From the NCBI RefSeq assembly GCF_019355935.1, contig NZ_CP079925.1, positions 3,100,001-3,164,000 on the forward strand: a stretch of DNA of 64,000 nt. Reading direction: 5' to 3'. This document shows positions 19,494 through 29,665 of this stretch, piece by piece; positions within the stretch are counted from its first letter, which is position 1; each line of letters opens with the position of its first letter. Source of the stretch: Comamonas sp. Y33R10-2. Lineage in GTDB: Bacteria > Pseudomonadota > Gammaproteobacteria > Burkholderiales > Burkholderiaceae_C. A model generated the notes under the pieces. The model worked only from the letters and a program-made list of their open reading frames with translations. It ran no database searches and had not been told where the DNA came from. The translations under genes were made by a program, and so were the position numbers.

Positions 19494-19826
19494 TTAAAAC
19501 TGCGCAAGCGCCTCGGCGCGGGTCGCGGTGACGTTGAGAATGGCTAAAAAGCCACTGATGTCGAACACCTCGCGCACATGGGGTTGCATGCCGTAAATCA
19601 CCAGCTTGCCGCCCGCTTGCTTGAGCCGTTTGGCCAGCACCAGCACCACGCGCAGGCCGGCGCTGGAGATGTAGCTCAGCTCAGTCATGTTCAGCAGCAC
19701 GCTTTTGGCGCCTTGATTGACGACGGCCAAGACCTCTGTCTCAACGGTGGCTGCGTTGGAGCTGTTGACCTGACCTTGCAGGGCGATGATGTGCGCTTTG
19801 TCAGTGGGCTCAATTGCAATAGTCAT
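19494..19826 (-). CDS. STAS-domain protein (anti-sigma factor antagonist type)
   Basis: A 110-residue single STAS domain, like SpoIIAA/RsbV. The phosphorylation segment ELSYISSAGLRVVLVL places a conserved Ser at residue 55, aligned with SpoIIAA Ser58. I chose ATG at 19826, 8 bases after a GAG; a GTG at 19835 is in frame but has no ribosome site. It is divergent from the permease gene at 19924, which is followed by an RsbW-like ATPase and a SpoIIE-type phosphatase. By family knowledge the ATPase would phosphorylate this Ser and the phosphatase would reverse it. No sigma factor gene is nearby, so its partner is probably something else, perhaps the permease tail. Confidence 0.9.
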   Translation of the reverse strand: MTIAIEPTDKAHIIALQGQVNSSNAATVETEVLAVVNQGAKSVLLNMTELSYISSAGLRVVLVLAKRLKQAGGKLVIYGMQPHVREVFDISGFLAILNVTATRAEALAQF

Positions 19827-19923
19827 GGCAGACACTCGTGATGAAATGCGTTGGGATGCTTTCGAGAATAACAGTCTGGTGGTGCTGAGTTATGTCACCA
19901 GCCAGTGAAAACAATTTTTAGTG

Positions 19924-21684
19924 ATGAGCCGTTTGAAATTTCCGCCCTCTGAGGTACGCCGCCGTTCACCCAATTTGGTCTATGGGGCCGATGATCGCTT
20001 GCCGTGGTCTTCGCTTTGGGTGCTGGCAGCCCAGCACAGCGCTGCGGCGATTGCGTTTTTGTCTTATGTGCTGGTTGCCACCAGAGCCGCCGGGCTCGAT
20101 GCCGCTGGCACCCAATCCATGCTGGCGATGACGCTTCTGGGCATGGCCGTTTGCATGGCTTTACAGGCTTGGGGCGGGCACTGGGGCAGCGGCTATTTGC
20201 TGCCCCATGTTCCCAACCCCTTTGTGATCTCTTTTGTGGCCGCTACCTTGAGCGCTGTGGGCCCCGGCGGCATGCCCTTGATTGCGCTGGTGTACTGCAG
20301 CGTGACTTTGTTGTTGGCGCCGCTGATTACGCGTATGCGCTCGGTGTTCCCGGCCTTTGTGGTGGGCGTTGTCATCATCATGGGCGGGCTGCTGCTGGTC
20401 GAAGGTGCCGTCAAGCATGCGCTGGGGTTAGATGCGCAGTGGCTGATTGATGGCGCCAGCGCGTTAACAGCGGCATGCACCTTGCTCACCATCGTGGTCG
20501 CTTCGGTCTGGGGCGGCAAGCGCCTGAGTTTGATGGCTTTGCTGCTTGGCATGGGCGTGGGCATCGTCGTCGCTGCGTTGACGGGAAACCTTCATGGCTG
20601 GGATGCCATCAAAGACGCAGCCTTGCTGCAACTGCCCGCCTTGCACATGCCTCAGTTCAAGGGCGACATGGGCACCTTGGTCGCCATCGGCCTGATCGCC
20701 ATGCTGACCCAGCTAGACACCATGGGCAACGTCAGCCTGATGGACAAGCTGGAAGACGCCGACTGGCGCCGCGTCAACATGCGTGCCGTGGCAGGCGGCA
20801 TGCGTGCCCATGCGATTGGCGACTGCGTGACAGGCATGTTTGGCGGCTTTCCCACCTGCACCAGCGCCACCAATATTGCGCTGGCCCATGCCACCCACGC
20901 AACGGCGCGGGTGATTGGTTTGGCCACGGCGGTGATCCTGGGCATTGCGGCCTTCATGCCCAAGGTCACCGTCGCAATCATGCAAATCCCAGAGCCGGTC
21001 TTGGGCGCGGTGGAGCTGTACGCCGCCGCCTTTTTGATCGTGGCGGGCATTGAGCTGATTGCTGCGCGGGCCATGGATAGCCGCTCCACCTTTGCTGTGG
21101 GCCTGTCGATTAGCGCGGGCATTGCCGTGATGGCCATGCCGCAGTTGATGAATTCGGTGCCGGCTTACTGGCGCTCTTTGTTTGGCAATGCGCTGGTGGT
21201 TTCGGGGCTGCTGGTCATTGTGCTGAACTTGCTGTTTCGCCTCGGAACCTCGCGCAAGGCCGAGCAGGCCTTGACTAGCGCGGCCACTTTGCACCACGAC
21301 ATCACTAATTTTGTAGAAGCGCAGGGCGGCGCTTGGGGCGCACGCCGCGACGTGGTGCAGCGCGCAGCGTTGGCGGCGCTTGAAGGGGCCGAAGGCATTC
21401 AGGCAGCAGGCAGGCAAGTCAGTGCCATACGCGGCAGTTTTGATGAATTCAATTTGGATTTAGAGCTGCTGCACACCGGCACTGCGTTGCCGTTAACGAA
21501 GGCTGGCGCAGGTGTAGCCAGTGCATTGCCTGCGCATGATTTGCTAGATGCGGATGACGATGCGTTTGAAGCGGCGCTTTCGCAAGTCTCATCACAGCTG
21601 CTGCGACATATTGCGGACCGCGTGAGTACTTATGATGGACAGGCAGGGCAGTCTTCTGGCTTGCAGCTGCACTTTGCCCACTGA
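19924..21684 (+). CDS. NCS2-family (xanthine/uracil type) permease with degenerate HATPase-like C-terminal domain
   Basis: A 586-residue protein. Residues about 30-440 form an NCS2 transporter with about 12-14 membrane helices. The helix-8 motif that usually reads Glu-X-X-Gly is QLDTMGN here (Asp near residue 265), and the NXXGXXXXTR segment reads ATNIALAHATHATAR, so the substrate site is divergent. The last 130 residues are soluble. RDVVQRAALAALEGAEGI, FDEFNLDLELLHTGTALPL and LLRHIADRVSTYDGQAG follow the order of an RsbW-type HATPase fold, but the N-box Asn and the Asp-X-Gly nucleotide motif are missing. This suggests a non-catalytic docking domain. No clear ribosome site was found; GTG at 19921 is also possible. 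The next gene is the RsbW-like ATPase. Confidence 0.85.
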   Translation: MSRLKFPPSEVRRRSPNLVYGADDRLPWSSLWVLAAQHSAAAIAFLSYVLVATRAAGLDAAGTQSMLAMTLLGMAVCMALQAWGGHWGSGYLLPHVPNPFVISFVAATLSAVGPGGMPLIALVYCSVTLLLAPLITRMRSVFPAFVVGVVIIMGGLLLVEGAVKHALGLDAQWLIDGASALTAACTLLTIVVASVWGGKRLSLMALLLGMGVGIVVAALTGNLHGWDAIKDAALLQLPALHMPQFKGDMGTLVAIGLIAMLTQLDTMGNVSLMDKLEDADWRRVNMRAVAGGMRAHAIGDCVTGMFGGFPTCTSATNIALAHATHATARVIGLATAVILGIAAFMPKVTVAIMQIPEPVLGAVELYAAAFLIVAGIELIAARAMDSRSTFAVGLSISAGIAVMAMPQLMNSVPAYWRSLFGNALVVSGLLVIVLNLLFRLGTSRKAEQALTSAATLHHDITNFVEAQGGAWGARRDVVQRAALAALEGAEGIQAAGRQVSAIRGSFDEFNLDLELLHTGTALPLTKAGAGVASALPAHDLLDADDDAFEAALSQVSSQLLRHIADRVSTYDGQAGQSSGLQLHFAH

Positions 21685-21718
21685 CCTTTTTTGAGCGTCC
21701 AAGCTCGTCTCTTAACGC

Positions 21719-22180
21719 ATGGCACAAGCTCCCATCACTTCTTTGCCTTGGCCTGCACTGCAACTACTGGAGCAGCGGGCCATGCCTGCGCACTGCGAAG
21801 CCATTGCTGAAGTGATCGCGTGGCTGGAAGAGGTGAGCGAGCGCGAGAAATGGCCGCTTAAAACCGTCTTTGCGCTCACGTTGTGCGCGGATGAGGCTTT
21901 GACCAATATCGTCACGCATGCCAATCCAGCAGGCGATCAGCCGCTATCAATTCAGTTGCAACTGGGCACTCTGAATGATGGGGTCGGACTGTGCATTGCA
22001 GACAACGGAGCAGAGTTCGACCCCACGCTTAGAGAGGCTGCACCGCTGGCCAAAAAATTGGATGATGCCGAGATGGGCGGCCACGGCCTGCGGCTGATGC
22101 GCCACTATTTGCAGCGCTTTGAATACCGCCGAAGTGATGGCTGGAACTGGCTTTTGCTCGTTGTTGCTAGTGATCTTTAG
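21719..22180 (+). CDS. RsbW/SpoIIAB-like HATPase (predicted STAS kinase)
   Basis: A 153-residue GHKL-type ATP-binding protein. The N-box is ALTLCADEALTNIVTHAN (about residues 55-72), the G1 box is CIADNGAEFDP and the G2 box is MGGHGLRLMRHYL; all key residues are intact, in contrast to the degenerate tail of the permease upstream. Proteins of this family phosphorylate a Ser on STAS partners, which here would be the product of 19494-19826. The gene lies 34 bp after the permease and its end overlaps, tail to tail, the SpoIIE-type phosphatase gene by 4 bp. No sigma factor lies nearby. Confidence 0.92.
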   Translation: MAQAPITSLPWPALQLLEQRAMPAHCEAIAEVIAWLEEVSEREKWPLKTVFALTLCADEALTNIVTHANPAGDQPLSIQLQLGTLNDGVGLCIADNGAEFDPTLREAAPLAKKLDDAEMGGHGLRLMRHYLQRFEYRRSDGWNWLLLVVASDL

Positions 22181-24258
22181 CCCCGATACAGCAGGCTCAC
22201 ACAAGTAATGTCATCGGCCTGCGGCGCACCATCTTCAAACGCTCGCACGCTTTGCAGCACGGCTAGAGTGATGTCCTCGGGGCTTGATTGCTTTGCTGCC
22301 AGTGGGTTGAGCGTGGCCAGCAAGCGCTGATCGCCATATTCTTGCTGCTGATGGTTGAAGGCTTCGGTTACGCCATCTGTAAACAAAAAGAGCCGGTCGC
22401 CGGCCTGCAGTTGGAGCACAGCTTCTTGGTACACAAACTCTTCGCTTACGGCGACCGCCACGCCGCCTGTGCGCGCCAGCGTGCGCACCGGCTCTGCATC
22501 ACCGGGCTGGGCGGGCAGTAGATAGGGTGCGTTGTGCCCGGCATTCACGTAGCGCAGCTGGCCGCTGGGCAGATGCAGCACGCCGTAGAAGATGGTCACA
22601 AACATCATCTGCTCGTTTTCTGCGGCCAGCAGGTCGTTGAGCCTGCGTATGCAGGAGCTGGGCGACATCACAAATGCGGCGGTGGACTTGAGCAGGGTGC
22701 GCGTAATGGCCATGAACAGCGCGGCAGGAACGCCCTTGCCGGAGACATCGGCAATCACCAGTCCCAAGTGATCTTTGTCTAGCCAGAAATAGTCGTAGAA
22801 ATCGCCCCCCACCTCGCGCGCCGGGGTGATGTGGCAATGCAGCTGCAGGCGCGCATCGGCCGGCATTTGCTGGGGCAGAATGCTGCGCTGCACTTCAGCG
22901 GCAATCTGCAGCTCTTGCTGCAGGCCAGCGAGCTGGGTTTTGCTCACCAGTGCTTCGCGCAGCTCAACCACCATGCTGCTCAGGCTTTTGTGCTGCTCGG
23001 CAATGCGGCGCGTCAGGTCTGACATGACATGTGCTAGCTGGCGCAGCTGGCCGTCATCGCTTTGCGGGGCTGGGTCGCTTTGCAGCAGTTGCAAGACCTC
23101 TTCACGGCTGGTCATGTCGGTGGCATCGGCTAACTGCTGCAGCTGCTGGTGTATCAGTTGCTCTTGCCGGCGGCGCACGCGCTCGCGCTGGCTACGTGCG
23201 CGGGCTAACTCTTGCGCGCTGTGTCTGAAATGGGTGACGGCCTTGGCAATGCGGCCAATTTCGTCATTGCGCTGGTGGTTGAGTTGCACACTGGTATCGC
23301 CCTTGGCTAGCGCCTGCAGTGCGCTAATGGCCTGGTCTAGCGGCTCAAAGCTGCGGCGCAAATACCAAGACAGGCCCAGCAGGCCCAGCGCAATCAAAAA
23401 CAGCGTAACGCCCGCCGCAAGTCGCGCTAAAAATAGGCTGGCCAATATCTGACTGGAGTCATCTTTGAGGGTGACAAGGGTGGCGACTTCATGCCCTGCC
23501 AAGTCACGCACTTGATGGCTAGTGACGGAGTAGATTTTTGAGCCGATAGGCGCTTGAAAATACTGCTGCTGCCTTGGTGAAATGAGCGGCGCAACGGCCT
23601 GCCAAAGCTCATGGTGAGTGGTCGCAAGCAAGGTGCCGCGCAAGTCCAGCAAGCTGGCTTGTAAGTGGCTTGGCTGCCTGTTTTGGTTTTGCTGATTTGC
23701 TTGCTTGTTTTGACTAAAGCGCTGCAGCGCACTGCTGAGGCTGCGTCCAGCCACCAAGACCACAGGCTCGCCATTGCCGGGCACAAGGCGTGCAGAAATC
23801 AGCATGGCGATGTTGCCGCTACCCAAGCGCAGGCCGTTGATGTCTTCGCCGCTGAAAAGTTGCTCTAGGCTACCCGCGTCCAGTAACGGAATGGGAGCGG
23901 TTTGACCGAGCGTCATGGGCTCATGGCCGGGGCGCAGCACCGCCAGCAGCTGCAGCAACTGCCCATCGCCGGGGACGAGATTTTCTGCGATCAATCTTTT
24001 TTCTAGCGCTTTGCTGTCTTGACTGCGTGCAGCGCTGGCAATAGCGGGCAGGGCGGTGAGTTGGTCTAGCGCCGCATCCATGTACTGTTCTTCAGCTGCC
24101 AAAACCTGCTTCCACAGCGACTCTTGCGCTTGCTGGGCCAGCGTAGCGATGCGCTCTTGCTGCAGTTGCTCACGTATCCAGCCAAAGCCCAGCAAGGCCA
24201 GAGTGGTTAACAGCAGTCCTGCTGCCACGATCGTGATGATGCGCAGCCGCAAGGTCAT
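22177..24258 (-). CDS. Membrane-bound SpoIIE/RsbU-type PP2C phosphatase with HAMP domain
   Basis: A 693-residue sensor phosphatase. A first membrane helix (about residues 5-25), an extracytoplasmic sensor region of about 240 residues and a second helix near 280-300 are followed by a HAMP-like segment (about 300-355), a coiled region and the PP2C domain (about 460-690). Metal-binding PP2C motifs are intact: VGGDFYDYFW, VIADVSGKGVPAALFM, LFLFTDGVTEAF and ADDITCVSL. It would dephosphorylate the STAS protein in response to an external signal. It is the last gene of a tightly overlapped minus-strand operon that begins at 27601, and it overlaps the preceding gene by 4 bp. Confidence 0.93.
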   Translation of the reverse strand: MTLRLRIITIVAAGLLLTTLALLGFGWIREQLQQERIATLAQQAQESLWKQVLAAEEQYMDAALDQLTALPAIASAARSQDSKALEKRLIAENLVPGDGQLLQLLAVLRPGHEPMTLGQTAPIPLLDAGSLEQLFSGEDINGLRLGSGNIAMLISARLVPGNGEPVVLVAGRSLSSALQRFSQNKQANQQNQNRQPSHLQASLLDLRGTLLATTHHELWQAVAPLISPRQQQYFQAPIGSKIYSVTSHQVRDLAGHEVATLVTLKDDSSQILASLFLARLAAGVTLFLIALGLLGLSWYLRRSFEPLDQAISALQALAKGDTSVQLNHQRNDEIGRIAKAVTHFRHSAQELARARSQRERVRRRQEQLIHQQLQQLADATDMTSREEVLQLLQSDPAPQSDDGQLRQLAHVMSDLTRRIAEQHKSLSSMVVELREALVSKTQLAGLQQELQIAAEVQRSILPQQMPADARLQLHCHITPAREVGGDFYDYFWLDKDHLGLVIADVSGKGVPAALFMAITRTLLKSTAAFVMSPSSCIRRLNDLLAAENEQMMFVTIFYGVLHLPSGQLRYVNAGHNAPYLLPAQPGDAEPVRTLARTGGVAVAVSEEFVYQEAVLQLQAGDRLFLFTDGVTEAFNHQQQEYGDQRLLATLNPLAAKQSSPEDITLAVLQSVRAFEDGAPQADDITCVSLLYRG

Positions 24259-25055
24259 TGAGTGACTCCATTTTTAATAGCTGCTAGTTCAATAGATTCA
24301 ATGGCTGCAAGCATTTTTTGATCAAAATCGACAGCTTTGATTTCTGCCGCGTAGTCTTGTACGGCTTGCTGGGCTTTTTGGTTGCGCTGCTGCAGCGTGG
24401 CCAAGGTGTGGATTGCGCCATGCAGATCGTCGCCCGCATGGCGTTCTTGCAGCGGCAACAGAGCTAGCGGTGTTGCGTCGCGCAGGCTGCTCAGCAGCAG
24501 CTCATGCCTAGCCTGCAGACGCAGAGCAGGGCCAAAATAAACAGCCAAGGCCATCAGCAGTGACGCCAATAAAACGATGAACGTGCAGGCCAGTGCCGGT
24601 TGGAGCAGGCCTTGCACTTGCGAGTTGCGCGCGCCTGCCTGAATCAGAGCCACGGACTGGCCTTTGACGACGACGGGCAGCGTCAGCAGAGATTCGGCGG
24701 TGCCGCGTGAGGCGGAGTACATGGGCTGGCCATGGGTATCCGCCACAGCAATGTAGGCCAGCTGCGGGGTGTTGTTGAGCGTTTGCTGCAGGTGGGCTTC
24801 TACCCCCGGCAACTTCTGCAGCGGAATGCCCAAGCGTGCGGCGCGGGCCATCTGATTGACCAGCGTCTGCGCGACGGAATGGGCAATGGCCTGTTGGCCG
24901 GCCAGCGCTTGCTGCTGATTGTGTTGGGCCAGCCCAATCAACAGCGCCGCGGCGCCTAAGCTGCCCACCAGCAAGGTGATGGCGGCGCAGCGAAGAGTCA
25001 GTTGCCGACGCAGCTTGAATGGCACTGCGTGCGCTGGCGCGTATTTACTGGCCAC
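24255..25055 (-). CDS. Two-helix membrane protein, possible sensor subunit
   Basis: I do not recognise a named family. From the GTG at 25055 the protein has 266 residues: a helix near residues 20-42 (ITLLVGSLGAAALLIGLA), an extracytoplasmic part of about 110 residues, a second helix near 150-175 (IVLLASLLMALAVYFGPAL) and a cytoplasmic tail likely to be helical. The reading frame stays open upstream, but a longer form would overlap the previous gene by more than 260 bp in another frame and be Ser/Cys-rich, so I reject it; GAG 8 bases before the GTG supports the shorter form. No enzyme domain is visible. The last codons lie in a dispersed repeat. Confidence 0.7.
   Translation of the reverse strand: MASKYAPAHAVPFKLRRQLTLRCAAITLLVGSLGAAALLIGLAQHNQQQALAGQQAIAHSVAQTLVNQMARAARLGIPLQKLPGVEAHLQQTLNNTPQLAYIAVADTHGQPMYSASRGTAESLLTLPVVVKGQSVALIQAGARNSQVQGLLQPALACTFIVLLASLLMALAVYFGPALRLQARHELLLSSLRDATPLALLPLQERHAGDDLHGAIHTLATLQQRNQKAQQAVQDYAAEIKAVDFDQKMLAAIESIELAAIKNGVTQ
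24271..24320. repeat. Dispersed ATAGCT repeat at the 3' end of a membrane-protein gene
   Basis: Plus strand begins tttttaATAGCTGCTAG and continues to aatggctgcaagcatttttt. It aligns over about 50 bp with the copies at 31990 and 47361. It encodes the C-terminal residues IESIELAAIK of the 24255-25055 gene, upstream of the stop that overlaps the phosphatase start. Confidence 0.5.
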
Positions 25056-25809
25056 GGTCCAGCTCCTGCAACTGCTGCATGGCTTGCTGTGTTTGTGTGT
25101 ACTCTTGCTCAAGCTGCTTGGCAGCTTGCGCGGCCCATGGTTTGAGTTCGCCGGCGCTGCCGGAGTCTGTTTCATGCACCTGCTCTTGCGCAAGAATGCG
25201 GCTGATTTGGCGATAGGGGCGCAGGCAGCGCAACAGCTCCCACTGCAGCAGCGCAAGGGCGGCAGCGCAGCAGCCGATGAACAAACCCACCCAGATGAGC
25301 GCTTGTACACCTGCGCCCTGCCATTGCGCCAGCGTCCATGCGCCGCCTGTGGGTTGCAGCGTCAACACAATGCCGCCGGCTGCGCGGCCTAAATCGTTTT
25401 CAAAGCGCATGCCCAGCTGGTCTTGCGTGGGGTCTTGGGTTTCCCAGCTGCCGCTTTGTACAAGCTGGCTCACCCAGTCTTGCGGCACCTGAGTGTGCAA
25501 TGCTCCGGCATCGGTGCTGTAGCTGATGCGCCCGGCAGGGTTGAAGATATCGATGGCCATGATCTGCGCAAAGTTGGCCCTCTCGCGGTCGATGATGTCT
25601 TGCATGGCCGGCATTTGCTCAGGCGTCATGCCGGTGGCCAAAAAGTCTTCGGCAGTTTTACGCAGGCTTTGCAAAAGAAAATGATTGCGCTCTTGCGTCA
25701 AATTTCGCGTGTTGATCTGCGAAAACTGCCAGCAAACCATGCTGAGAACCGCCAGCAGCAAAGCCACACCTAGCGCGATAAAGCTAAAGAGCTGTGCTCG
25801 TGCGTTCAT
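25045..25809 (-). CDS. Two-helix membrane protein with extracytoplasmic domain, possible sensor subunit
   Basis: An unrecognised 254-residue protein. Residues 8-29 form a membrane helix (FIALGVALLLAVLSMVC), about 30-160 form an external domain that includes IMAIDIFNPAGRISYSTDAG, reminiscent of a PAS/Cache-like sensor strand order, and about 165-190 form a second helix. A cytoplasmic Gln/Glu-rich tail, probably coiled coil, ends ELDRGQ. There is no kinase, HAMP or phosphatase domain. It overlaps the GNAT gene by 4 bp and the next membrane protein by 11 bp, so the genes are co-translated. The similar layout of three consecutive products suggests a membrane signalling complex; this is inference. 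Confidence 0.75.
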   Translation of the reverse strand: MNARAQLFSFIALGVALLLAVLSMVCWQFSQINTRNLTQERNHFLLQSLRKTAEDFLATGMTPEQMPAMQDIIDRERANFAQIMAIDIFNPAGRISYSTDAGALHTQVPQDWVSQLVQSGSWETQDPTQDQLGMRFENDLGRAAGGIVLTLQPTGGAWTLAQWQGAGVQALIWVGLFIGCCAAALALLQWELLRCLRPYRQISRILAQEQVHETDSGSAGELKPWAAQAAKQLEQEYTQTQQAMQQLQELDRGQ

Positions 25810-26519
25810 ATTCGAATTCGCTGAGATGCAGTGGGCACGTAGCGCATGTATTCAATGCTGTGACCGGGCTGCGCGCCGCGCCAGCCTTGGCTCAAAAGCT
25901 CTTGCTGGCGCTTGATGTCGAGCGCATGAATTTCTTTGGAGAAATCGGGGTAAAGCGCATGCTCAGGCAGAGGCTCCAGCACCATCAAATAGCGTAAATG
26001 ACCGCCGTAATGCTCTCCTATGTCACGCACATGAAAGCCGCAGGCAAGTAAGTTGTTCCAGCTATGCCAGTTTGCGGGTGCGGCGGTGGAAAACAGCAAG
26101 CACTGAGGTCCCGCCTGGCTCATGCGCTGCATGATGAGTCGCCGCTGCAAGCCAAGGCCTTGCCACTCGGGGGCGACGGAAACACCGGCTAGCATGAGTT
26201 GCGGGCGCTGTGGGTCTACAGCGATGCTAGGTGGAAGCTCTTGATGCTCCTGCAAATCGTGCTGTAAAACGCTATAGGCCACCAACTCATCTTGATCAAA
26301 AAGACCGCTCATATGGCTGCGCAGCAGCAAGCTTTGAAGCGAAGCCAAAGACTCTTTTCGTACCAGCGTTTCGCTCCAATTTTGCGTGCAGCGCAGATGT
26401 AAGGCGAGCGCGCTTTCAAGGTCGGAAGCTGTCAATTCTCGCTGCGCCAAATGCGATGGGGGCAGCATTGCCTTTGTGGTTTCGGCTTGGCTCAAGTTCT
26501 TGATTAAGGTGTGGCTCAT
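25806..26519 (-). CDS. GNAT-family acetyltransferase-like protein
   Basis: A 237-residue protein with a GNAT core in the middle: LMLAGVSVAPEWQGLGLQRR (about residues 108-130) contains the acetyl-CoA pyrophosphate-binding Gln-X-X-Gly-X-Gly/Ala motif, followed by a helix and the NNLLACGFHVRDIG stretch that fits motif B. The substrate cannot be deduced. It sits between the exported solute-binding protein gene and the sensor genes, with 4-bp overlaps on both sides, so it belongs to the signalling operon. It may modify a protein of the module or simply act on a small molecule related to the signal. Confidence 0.78.
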   Translation of the reverse strand: MSHTLIKNLSQAETTKAMLPPSHLAQRELTASDLESALALHLRCTQNWSETLVRKESLASLQSLLLRSHMSGLFDQDELVAYSVLQHDLQEHQELPPSIAVDPQRPQLMLAGVSVAPEWQGLGLQRRLIMQRMSQAGPQCLLFSTAAPANWHSWNNLLACGFHVRDIGEHYGGHLRYLMVLEPLPEHALYPDFSKEIHALDIKRQQELLSQGWRGAQPGHSIEYMRYVPTASQRIRI

Positions 26520-27601
26520 GAGGTGCTTGCCCCCGATTGAGTGGCCACAACTTCGGCGTAGTTCAGTAGCGGTAGTGGTGGGTATAGCTCTAGCTGCTGC
26601 GCCATCTGCATATTGACCATGAGAGAGAAGCGTTTGAGCGATTCCACCGGCGTTTGCTGCACAGTTTTTTTGCCCTGCAAAATGTCTGCCGCTTTGGCTG
26701 CTGCCAACTGGCCTACCGAGTAGTAGCGGCTCACCACACCGGTCAATGCATTGCCGCTGCGCATGGCCAATTCAGTGGATGCAAACAGCGGCAGTTTGCG
26801 TGCCATAGCCAGTGGGGTAAGGCGCTCGTAAAGAGTGCCGAGGAAGGTGTCTGGCGGCAAATACAGCCACTGCGCACCATCGCTATGAAGTTGCTCGATG
26901 AGTGACTCAAGCCCTTGGGCAGTCGGTTTACCGTCTGCGCTTTGCTGCAAAGGGCTTACCAGAATTTGCTTGCCGTTGGCTTGCCCGTATTGCTGCAGGC
27001 CTTCAATCACAGCCAAAGAGTTGGCCTCTGCCGCGTTGTAGATGACGCCCAGCTTGTCAAACTCGCGGTAGCTGCGCATGTGCTGCAACTGCCGCTCTAG
27101 CGGTACAACGTGGATGGCGCCGGTGACATTGCGCTCGGGTGCATTGAGCGCATTCACAATGCCGGCTTTTTGCGGGTCTGCCACCAGCGCAAAAACCACG
27201 GGAATATTGCGCAGACCAGGATGCGGGTTGGGCTGCTCCACCGTGCCCGTGACCGCCAGCGTGACGGGCGTGCCCCATGTGTAGATTAAGTCGGGGGCGA
27301 TTGTGGGAAGCTCATCCAAAATGGCAGCGATGCGGCTGGCATCTTGCTGCACATCGCGTACCGTGAACTCCACATTCAGACCGGCTTCTTTAAGGTGGTT
27401 TTGAAAGCCAATATCCACATCAGTGGTGCCGCGGTAGGTGAGCATTAGCACACGAAAGCGTTTGCCTGCGGTAGCTTGCAGGCGTGATTCAACCCCGACA
27501 GGGCGCATGGCTGCGCTACTGATACCCATGCCCGCGCCGGCAGTCGCGAGGCCGCAGGCCAGTAGCTGGCGTCGATTGAGGGTAGTTACTGGCTTGGGCA
27601 T
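26516..27601 (-). CDS. ABC_sub_bind-family solute-binding protein with Tat-like signal
   Basis: A 361-residue exported protein. The N terminus MPKPVTTLNRRQLLACGLAT has twin arginines followed by a hydrophobic stretch, as in Tat signal peptides. The mature part fits the ABC_sub_bind (PF04392-type) two-lobed binding fold: RFRVLMLTYRGTTDVDIGFQ, PDLIYTWGTPVTLAVTG and PVVFALVADPQKAGIVNA. No ABC permease or ATPase gene is adjacent. The gene is the first of a five-gene operon with 4-11 bp overlaps that ends in the SpoIIE-type phosphatase. A role in delivering a ligand signal to the sensors, rather than in transport, is therefore attractive but unproven. Confidence 0.85.
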   Translation of the reverse strand: MPKPVTTLNRRQLLACGLATAGAGMGISSAAMRPVGVESRLQATAGKRFRVLMLTYRGTTDVDIGFQNHLKEAGLNVEFTVRDVQQDASRIAAILDELPTIAPDLIYTWGTPVTLAVTGTVEQPNPHPGLRNIPVVFALVADPQKAGIVNALNAPERNVTGAIHVVPLERQLQHMRSYREFDKLGVIYNAAEANSLAVIEGLQQYGQANGKQILVSPLQQSADGKPTAQGLESLIEQLHSDGAQWLYLPPDTFLGTLYERLTPLAMARKLPLFASTELAMRSGNALTGVVSRYYSVGQLAAAKAADILQGKKTVQQTPVESLKRFSLMVNMQMAQQLELYPPLPLLNYAEVVATQSGASTS

Positions 27602-27691: not shown

Positions 27692-29665
27692 TTATGGCCA
27701 GAAAAAACTAAATGGCTTGCGCCACATGCGCTGGCGTATGGCTTTGTAGATGCGCGAGCGGTCTACACCGCTGACGTTGTGCGCACGCAGAGCGAGGCGG
27801 AAGGCCAGATAAAAGCTGACCCCCACGTTGAGCGCCGCATTCAAAGGCAGCATGGCGACGGCCCACCACAGCAAATCGTCATGCAGCACGCCCCAGCCCA
27901 GTGAAGCGACGGCCACGCCGATCTGCCCTGTGGACAAGGTGACGTGACGCACCTCTAGCCCCAGCCCGAAAAAGCTGGCAAAAGCAGGCACCAAACCGAG
28001 CATGAAGCCCAGTGAGATGTTGGACGACAGGCTGGAGATGTTGTTGCGCAAAAAGCTGGCCCAGCGATCCGCACGGCCGGCGCCCAATGCGCGGGTGATG
28101 CCGGGGTTATAGCGAATCACCGATTCGATATTGCGCAGCACAAACCAGTTTTCTGCACCGCCAGCAATCAAGCTGCTGACAAAGAGCAGCACGCCAGTAA
28201 AGGCGGCAAAGAAAAGCGATGGGCCCAGCAAACTCAGCGAGTCCAGCACTTGCTGTGCATGGTGGGTGCTCAGTGCAGGGTGTTCGACCAGGTGTGCGTA
28301 GCCTATGCAAAGCAGCAGTGCGGCCGGGAAGACGATGAGCACGTTGCCCAAAATAGCGGCCACTTGTGAGCGCACCAAGTGGGCGACCTCATCGACAAAC
28401 TCTTGAATGGCCGAGTCGGTCTGAATGTCCTTGAGCTTGGCGGCCATGGCCGGCGCCGTCATGGCGGGCTGCTTGGTTGCCACCGTGAAGTGCAGCATCT
28501 GGATCAGCACAAAGCTGATGGCGTAGTTAAAGCCGGCAGCAAGTCCTGCCCAGAACACGGACAGACCCAGTGCATACAGCGCAAACTTGGCCAGCGTGGT
28601 GAAGGCCATTACAAAGCCACCGCCGACCGCCTTGGCCATCATGCTGCGGTATTCCGCACCGTCGCGGGTGATGTAGTGTTCGCCCGTTTCGGCGCTGCGC
28701 TCTGCCACTTTGGCTGCCAGCAGCGATGAGTTGGTGGAGACCAGCGCGCGCACGCTGCGCCGCTCGATGCCCACGGTCACGAGGTTGGAGAGCAGTTCAG
28801 ACGTCTCGTAAGCACGGTCAGTTGCCAGCAAGCAGTCCAACAGACGGCGAATGCGCACAATGCGCGCGCGCACTTGGCGCAGCCTGAAGATCAAACCGAC
28901 CGAAATACCTTCGGCTTCGACGTAGGTGTAGACCGAGGCGATGGCTGCGCGGCAGGCTTCTAAACGCTCGCGCAGTTGCGCGGCAGCGGCGTCGCGGCGG
29001 TCTGTGGTGCGCAGCGGCAGCATGATTTCTACACGCAGGTTTTCTACGTCATGAATCAGCGCGTGAAACGGCTTGTCATCGCGCGCCTGATCGCTCATGC
29101 GCAGGCGCAACTCAGGTGCAAAACCGGTGGAGAGAATCTGGCCCGAGCAATAGGTGATGGCGTCCAGCAGCGATCGCTCCCAAAAGCTGATGCCTTCTGC
29201 GCTGTCTTCTTGTTGCTGCGGGTTCAGGAGTGCCGAGATGCGGGCCATGAGCTGGCTGTCCAGCGCGTGCAGCCAGCGGGCGTCAAAGCGATCGGGAAAG
29301 GCCAGCATGAATAGCTCAGAGGCATCCACGGTCTCTGGCGTGCTTGGCAGCTTGTAGCGCAGGCGCTCCACCAGTTCACTGGCCATGGCGGTGCGCGGGG
29401 CAAAGCCAAAGTCGGCCAGTAAGGCGGTGATGTCCACCGTCTTCATCAGCGTCTTGGCCCACCGGCGCAGGCGCTCTAGCGCTTCGGGGTCGGTCTCAAA
29501 AGCGGTAACGATTTCTTCTACACGCCGTAGGGCACCATCCACGGATGGCTGGGCTGCGCGTATCCATTCGGCCAGATAAATCAGCCACAGATGGCGTTGC
29601 GCCAAGCCTGCATCGGGGTCTAACGACTCGAGCAGACCTGGCAGGTCAAGAGTGCTTTTTTTCAT
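27692..29665 (-). CDS. Membrane protein of the SpecificRecomb (Gcr-like) family
   Basis: A 657-residue protein of the family annotated as site-specific recombinase (PF10136 type). The N-terminal 350 residues are soluble and helical (AQRHLWLIYLAEWIRAAQ). The C-terminal 300 residues contain at least six hydrophobic segments, for example FVMAFTTLAKFALYALGLS, LIVFPAALLLCIGYAHLV and LFFAAFTGVLLFVSSLIAGG. No Ser or Tyr recombinase motif is visible, so I doubt the family name and would call it a conserved membrane protein. It lies 18 bp downstream of apaG on the same strand. It is not part of a mobile element. Confidence 0.82.
   Translation of the reverse strand: MKKSTLDLPGLLESLDPDAGLAQRHLWLIYLAEWIRAAQPSVDGALRRVEEIVTAFETDPEALERLRRWAKTLMKTVDITALLADFGFAPRTAMASELVERLRYKLPSTPETVDASELFMLAFPDRFDARWLHALDSQLMARISALLNPQQQEDSAEGISFWERSLLDAITYCSGQILSTGFAPELRLRMSDQARDDKPFHALIHDVENLRVEIMLPLRTTDRRDAAAAQLRERLEACRAAIASVYTYVEAEGISVGLIFRLRQVRARIVRIRRLLDCLLATDRAYETSELLSNLVTVGIERRSVRALVSTNSSLLAAKVAERSAETGEHYITRDGAEYRSMMAKAVGGGFVMAFTTLAKFALYALGLSVFWAGLAAGFNYAISFVLIQMLHFTVATKQPAMTAPAMAAKLKDIQTDSAIQEFVDEVAHLVRSQVAAILGNVLIVFPAALLLCIGYAHLVEHPALSTHHAQQVLDSLSLLGPSLFFAAFTGVLLFVSSLIAGGAENWFVLRNIESVIRYNPGITRALGAGRADRWASFLRNNISSLSSNISLGFMLGLVPAFASFFGLGLEVRHVTLSTGQIGVAVASLGWGVLHDDLLWWAVAMLPLNAALNVGVSFYLAFRLALRAHNVSGVDRSRIYKAIRQRMWRKPFSFFWP

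Follow-up and report, generated by a model that had tools for sequence, protein, structure and literature searches.

The locus described here lies in a stretch of 64,000 nucleotides from Comamonas sp. Y33R10-2 (contig NZ_CP079925.1, positions 3,100,001 to 3,164,000 of the forward strand), called the window below, whose host genome is a single contig of 3,839,540 bases. The unit analyzed, 19494..27601 of the window, is a module of eight genes that holds a complete partner switch and an NCS2-type permease whose C-terminal tail is predicted to be a dead copy of the switch kinase. Open reading frames and Pfam and NCBIfam matches bear out the gene set, families and positions claimed in a sequence-only reading of this DNA, and the features are as follows.

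19494..19835 (-): STAS protein (RsbV/BtrV-like), with phosphoacceptor Ser55 counted from the ATG at 19826
19836..19920: intergenic gap of 85 bp, across which the STAS and permease genes diverge
19921-21684 (+): NCS2-type permease, whole gene
19921..21240 (+): permease membrane domain, NCS2/SLC23-type, with substrate-site positions D (in TQLDTMG) and T (in SATNIAL)
21241..21681 (+): permease C-terminal domain, predicted pseudo-RsbW (dead HATPase/SpoIIAB fold)
21719..22180 (+): RsbW-type serine kinase (HATPase_c_2) with intact N, G1 and G2 boxes
22177..24258 (-): membrane HAMP and SpoIIE (PP2C) phosphatase
24255..25055 (-): orfB, membrane protein of two helices that lacks a known output domain, with a GTG start at 25055
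25045..25809 (-): orfA, membrane protein of two helices, predicted to have a Cache/PAS-type domain outside the cytoplasm and a coiled coil inside it
25806..26519 (-): GNAT-like protein of weak Pfam score, found repeatedly in the cassette
26516..27601 (-): ABC_sub_bind periplasmic binding protein (BtrN-like) with a twin-arginine N-terminus

The ABC_sub_bind, GNAT-like, orfA, orfB and HAMP/SpoIIE genes form a chain on the minus strand (27601 down to 22177) with overlaps of 4, 4, 11 and 4 bp, and the STAS gene, also on the minus strand, is separate from it. The RsbW and SpoIIE genes converge with a 4-bp overlap at 22177-22180, just as had been claimed. Overlaps of 4-11 bp had been described for both arms; they hold for the minus-strand arm but not for the plus-strand arm, where permease and RsbW are spaced 34 bp apart.

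All parts of an Rsb/Spo-type switch are present in the module, namely a STAS protein with its serine, an RsbW with N, G1 and G2 boxes, and a SpoIIE/PP2C phosphatase. The STAS protein matches PF01740 at 2.6e-20 and the anti-sigma antagonist model TIGR00377 above cut-off, and the Ser55 singled out in the sequence-only reading, located at the SSAG loop, is invariant in 22 of 22 aligned sequences. The RsbW-type ATPase matches PF13581 at 4.1e-21 and was rightly called intact, with near-complete conservation of its motifs (Glu59 24/24, Asn63 24/24, Asp95 23/24, G120 and G123 24/24). The same applies to the SpoIIE protein, which matches PF07228 at 3.2e-46 and in whose translation GGDFYD, DVSGKG, TDGVTEA and ADDIT, which we take to be the PP2C motifs, can be read. 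Genome-wide, the 154-residue module RsbW is the one stand-alone HATPase_c_2 frame; ten further matches are weaker and fall in frames of 421-952 residues, taken by length alone to be histidine kinases. SpoIIE has a single match over cut-off, the module copy, and two weak ones below it. The module STAS protein is the best of five matches, the others lying in three frames of 512-562 residues and one of 131 residues. The module is therefore the only such partner switch found in the 3.84-Mb genome. Six Sigma70_r2 frames occur in the genome and none inside the window, in agreement with the earlier statement that the module has no sigma factor.

The feature that sets this module apart is the permease tail of about 145 residues, which had been described as kinase-like. 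Pfam alone gave HATPase_c_2 in just 1 of 30 tail rows (E 0.056), and a search of PDB sequences with the tail returned one implausible match at 0.055. The relation to RsbW is visible only by profile-profile comparison (E 3.8e-7 over 127 columns, with a shuffle control run) and by fold comparison, in which a predicted structure model supports the SpoIIAB fold. The nucleotide motifs are gone: the Asn (0/30), the G1 Asp (0/30) and the two invariant G2 glycines (0/30) are lost, and the G1 Gly is retained (30/30). An active kinase was ruled out on these counts. The tail is thus predicted to belong to the RsbW/SpoIIAB fold and to be kinase-like in fold only, and the lost motifs mark it as a putative catalytically dead RsbW domain.

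Tailed permeases travel with the switch far beyond the window genome. A scan of named species genomes, with a search pattern inside the tail that can detect tailed forms only, yielded 50 loci. One homologue search covered proteins of 0.55-1.75 times the query length, a range in which a free-standing tail is undetectable. A STAS, RsbW or SpoIIE homologue was present in 28 of the 50 tailed loci and all three in 22, and a partner lay within about 1.5 kb of the permease in 20/50 tailed loci versus 0/17 untailed NCS2 loci. Gene order varies: Comamonadaceae have that of the window, Alcaligenaceae have RsbW directly after the permease, Roseateles/Paucibacter have SpoIIE-RsbW-STAS ahead of it, Elusimicrobia have permease-STAS-RsbW, and a Smithellaceae genome has SpoIIE-STAS-permease. 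When genomes were searched for a SpoIIE elsewhere, all 24 had one (the 22 without a local partner, plus those of loci L009 and L055), and in 14 of 20 such places examined, including Sporomusa and Roseomonas, STAS or RsbW lay near it.

Co-occurrence was also counted by genome. In 399 genomes drawn evenly from the order, with the RsbW profile threshold at 1e-15, the tail was found in 7 and RsbW in 65, and all 7 were among the 65 (p 2.3e-6, a value that overstates independence because the genomes are related). SpoIIE, present in all 7 tail genomes, is weak evidence (p 0.076), being common in this sample (277/399 over cut-off). Among the 268 genomes of the G309 family, 39 had the tail and 70 had RsbW: 38 had both, 32 RsbW only, 197 neither, and one the tail only (G784, with 7% contamination). 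RsbW was accordingly present in 38/39 tail-bearing versus 32/229 tail-less genomes, and by genus the contrast is 16/16 versus 7/27, which remains strong despite relatedness; the two lay within 1 kb in 25 of the 39 tail genomes. The full tailed permease occurs in just 3 of 150 genomes of the window's own family. Chance neighborhood was ruled out by the untailed control (0/17) and this co-occurrence. That the set is more than chance neighbors is confirmed by its recurrence in other genomes, the check proposed in the sequence-only reading, and by its holding the only stand-alone RsbW and the only over-cut-off SpoIIE of its genome. Since the permease carries a broken copy of the kinase and travels with the complete switch that such kinases serve, these results suggest a switch that addresses a transporter rather than a factor of gene expression.

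Two outlying occurrences were noted. A metagenome-assembled genome (MAG) labeled Xanthobacteraceae (L030) has nearly the whole set in its own gene order, with a permease identity of 45%, possibly through transfer or mis-binning, and one Azospirillum plasmid bears the tail at 38% identity.

Judged by protein family and by the gene order seen in related genomes, counterparts of BtrV, BtrW, BtrU and BtrN occur together in the module, and the cassette is a relative of the Bordetella Btr switch. Table 3 of a review lists the btr genes as BtrV (STAS), BtrW (kinase), alr, BtrO (MFS), BtrU (SpoIIE), BtrN (ABC transporter), BtrM, BtrA and BtrS (extracytoplasmic function, ECF, sigma factor), and the review text at hand states that BtrU, BtrW and BtrV act on secretion through a yet unknown mechanism (PMC7498569). 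The comparison is with that table, not with the Bordetella sequences listed in it. On this basis, the window module shares with Btr the STAS protein, the RsbW-type kinase, the SpoIIE phosphatase and the ABC-type binding protein, and Alcaligenaceae loci share the order STAS-RsbW-alr-MFS-SpoIIE-ABC_sub_bind (Ala_racemase and MFS_1 by family). Of 17 pairs in which SpoIIE and ABC_sub_bind genes are same-strand neighbors, 16 have a 4-bp overlap. The window module differs in the dead-RsbW permease between its STAS and RsbW genes, a position also found in L018 and its Alcaligenaceae relatives, in its extra Cache-type and GNAT genes, and in the absence from the module of alr, MFS, ECF sigma and type III secretion genes. 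The resemblance to btrV-btrW-alr-btrO-btrU-btrN implies that the switch as such is not transporter-specific.

Sigma factor and type III neighbors were examined in 58 loci with at least two switch genes, using four type III proteins and eight sigma factors as queries; the set was gathered around tails, SpoIIE and RsbW rather than at random, and L054/L153 and L021/L159 appear in it twice. The 32 loci with a tail had no type III-like neighbor and a single weak sigma-like one (29 bits), by which routine sigma linkage of tailed loci was rejected. Among the 26 loci without a tail, 8 had type III-like genes, 5 of them a sigma factor as well, and the other 18 had neither. The ECF or sigma-like neighbors that the sequence-only reading had regarded as evidence against its proposal thus stand beside several Burkholderiales cassettes without a tail in the locus, but not as a rule beside tailed permeases. 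As tail and type III-like genes share no locus in this set, the cassette is a general signaling unit that has more than a single output, among whose partners is the tailed permease.

The tail-less loci also bear on the view that the switch targets an unlinked sigma factor, secretion system or enzyme, with the permease a mere neighbor or co-regulated gene and its tail structural. RsbW is common without a tail, which favors this view, and type III-like genes adjoin several tail-less cassettes; against it, the tail is related to RsbW, RsbW is present in 38 of 39 tail genomes, and the 32 tailed switch loci yielded nothing type III-like and one weak sigma-like match. We consider it unlikely.

From the genes and their linkage, the intact motifs of kinase, phosphatase and phosphoacceptor, and a tail with a predicted fold and lost motifs, we infer a Btr-type switch in which dephosphorylated STAS docks on the dead RsbW tail and alters permease activity. 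This reading, which adds to the anatomy a docking, its dependence on phosphorylation, a direction from switch to permease and a signal, is held tentatively, at a little short of an even chance. The ABC_sub_bind protein and the Cache-type sensors would sense a signal in the periplasm and adjust the SpoIIE phosphatase; Ser55 of STAS would be phosphorylated by RsbW and freed of its phosphate by SpoIIE. Dephosphorylated STAS would dock on the pseudo-RsbW tail, as SpoIIAA does on SpoIIAB, with a change in permease activity, and phosphorylated STAS would release the tail. The docking step taken by itself is, in our own judgement, quite probable.

Several observations weigh against this docking-and-control scheme. 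In 22 of the 50 tailed loci, no partner gene lies in the locus, and one of the seven tail genomes of the order sample (G460) has an interrupted-looking copy. The relatedness of the genomes tempers the co-occurrence. RsbW occurs without the tail in 32 genomes of the G309 family and 58 of the order sample, many genomes in all, which points to further outputs of the switch. Five genomes that bear the tail (Bordetella genomosp. 1 and 5, Diaphorobacter, a Comamonadaceae MAG and G516) have the switch beside type III-like genes and apart from the permease: at L128 and L129, both from Bordetella genomosp., an ECF gene and SctU/SctT-like genes come after the cassette, with the tailed permease elsewhere, and L130, L131 and L193 show the same arrangement by weaker type III-like matches. 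The loss of NCS2 substrate-site residues in all 55 tailed permeases, described below, fits a sensor as well as a carrier.

A further alternative makes the tail an oligomerization or stability module that descended from RsbW and lost STAS binding. RsbW/SpoIIAB domains dimerize. The active form of UraA, a carrier of the same membrane family, is given as a dimer in the consulted portion of PMC11362169. Both facts would suit such a module, which nevertheless leaves the persistent company of STAS, RsbW and SpoIIE unexplained, and we regard it as very unlikely.

The membrane domain bears on the direction of control. The permease matches PF00860 at 7.3e-32, a UraA profile at E 2.8e-28, and the NCBIfam model NCS2_1 above cut-off, with the pbuX and ncs2 models below theirs. 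In the available text of PMC11362169, E241, H245 and E290 of UraA are called substrate binding site residues. At the E241 column (transmembrane helix 8), Glu is found in 17/17 untailed controls and 0/55 tailed permeases (D 37, K 10, R 4, T 3, C 1), and at the E290 column (transmembrane helix 10), Gln/Glu is found in 17/17 and 0/55, respectively (A 36, S 9, T 7, G 3). The alignment with UraA is distant, although the 17 untailed controls line up cleanly; the profile alignment pairs E241 with the residue preceding the Asp and the column alignment pairs it with the Asp, and neither pairing gives a Glu. Owing to the loss of both residues, the tailed group is unlikely to consist of ordinary nucleobase carriers, and the permease may carry something else or act as a sensor.

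The permease could accordingly be the input, a transceptor in which ligand occupancy of the NCS2 fold alters the hold of the tail on STAS, and hence the STAS left for the true RsbW and for unlinked targets. The replacement of both canonical residues in every tailed permease and their retention in every untailed one favor this, as do the five genomes with the switch beside type III-like genes, and the cassette gathers other sensors (ABC_sub_bind/NMT1 binding proteins, Cache-type proteins, and an MFS protein with an N-terminus that matches the orfA profile). Conversely, the lost Glu is an Asp in 37 of the 55, so another substrate may be carried, and a downstream target is not in sight, the hrcV model giving a single match below cut-off in the window genome (580 vs 692 bits) and the module holding no sigma factor. 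We rate the transceptor as possible, at distinctly less than an even chance. The proposal of the sequence-only reading that the STAS phospho-state may control transport is partly supported, by the fold of the tail, the linkage and the lack of a sigma factor in the module, and is weakened by the Btr-like, non-transporter-specific switch and the lost substrate-site residues. Control of transport is one of two live directions, and the permease could equally be the input. Given docking, we lean slightly to the permease as output in the window genome, since a search with the hrcV model gave no type III system above cut-off there and no alternative target is apparent; the transceptor is almost as likely in view of the lost residues and the type III-linked relatives. 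STAS docking may gate the permease, or the permease may titrate STAS.

Variants of the tailed permease were seen in several loci. Comamonadaceae modules have a second tailed NCS2 paralogue downstream (L009:13009-14730, L010:12714-14762, L011:13068-14792), in which the FDEFN motif is altered to FDDYVF/FDEYIF, and L023:13466-14854 is a partial second copy about 1.6 kb downstream that includes an N stretch. In L156:9526-12057 and L157:9580-12099, a long N-terminal region (GAF-like by eye) precedes the NCS2 fold and dead RsbW tail; frames next to them resemble a membrane protein of the HAMP type and a binding protein of the TAXI type, as named from reading the sequence only.

The candidate input proteins are diverse. 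The orfA product is predicted to be anchored in the membrane and to have an extracytoplasmic Cache/PAS sensor and a coiled coil, with no output domain (predicted local distance difference test, pLDDT, 81.8; predicted template-modeling score, pTM, 0.58), and its model matches the sensor domains of WalK, CitA, KinD and DcuS. Neither orfA nor orfB matched a Pfam family; orfB homologues occur in related cassettes (L006, L009, L010, L030, L140, L192, L193 and others). The GNAT assignment is weak (PF13527, E 0.005, below cut-off). The ABC_sub_bind protein matches its Pfam family at 1.4e-28, and its twin-arginine motif was read from the sequence, with Pfam TAT_signal at merely E 0.13. The SpoIIE of L018 bears Cache domains, and ABC_sub_bind- or NMT1-type binding proteins adjoin SpoIIE in several loci. 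NMT1/THI5-like proteins replace ABC_sub_bind beside SpoIIE at L135:6886-7854, and one at L047:1370-2329 lies beside a membrane protein gene that runs off the contig. The orfA profile matches MFS_1 transporters with an N-terminal region of about 400 residues (L018:13315-15789, L130:5301-8018, L132:10728-13109), another protein of transporter type in the cassette that likely carries a sensor. The L132 cassette, from the Firmicute Sporomusa, has in addition an aminotransferase and a phosphopantetheinyl transferase, which gives the impression of signaling coupled to a biosynthetic step. The upstream neighbor of the window cassette, 27692-29665, encodes a PF10136 'SpecificRecomb' protein of full length; its hydropathy is suggestive of several helices in the membrane, which makes the family name questionable.

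Known partner switches act on sigma factors, on a diguanylate cyclase and, through a route not yet understood, on type III secretion. With a pseudo-RsbW fused to a permease, such switches would gain a direct target or a sensor in the membrane, and the tailed permease offers a testable candidate for the way in which a Btr-type switch could function when its kinase binds no sigma factor. More generally, a class of SLC23-fold membrane proteins that is widespread in bacteria may have become the membrane arm of a partner switch through a fused dead anti-sigma kinase, as a phospho-controlled transporter or a transceptor. They would then be an unrecognized partner of Btr-type switches, possibly including some that govern type III secretion, an extension we offer with the chances somewhat against it. 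In the literature searched, which left most subscription journals outside, we found no report of an RsbW-like domain on a permease or of STAS acting on an NCS2 carrier.

Compared with known systems, the module shares with SpoIIAA/SpoIIAB and RsbV/RsbW the phosphoacceptor serine, the kinase motifs and the PP2C phosphatase, and its permease tail has the predicted SpoIIAB fold; it differs in having no sigma factor and in carrying a second, ATP-dead kinase domain on a membrane protein. The STAS protein MlaB docks on the transporter ATPase MlaF, with a conserved Thr at the STAS phosphosite where a phosphomimetic weakens binding (PMC7367683, as far as its text was available). The likeness is a STAS protein docking on a transporter part, which is only proposed for the window module; MlaF, in contrast, is an ABC ATPase and not of the RsbW fold, and experimental phosphorylation evidence is not reported in that portion of the paper. 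In the SiaC-SiaD system, the target is instead a diguanylate cyclase, according to the available part of PMC8457831. The window permease shares the PF00860 membrane domain with the NCS2/SLC23 carriers UraA and XanP and differs from them in its tail and lost substrate-site residues. SLC26 carriers bear a STAS domain, and the arrangement described here mirrors them: a STAS domain there, a STAS partner on the related SLC23 fold here. The relationship of the SLC23 and SLC26 families is known from the literature.
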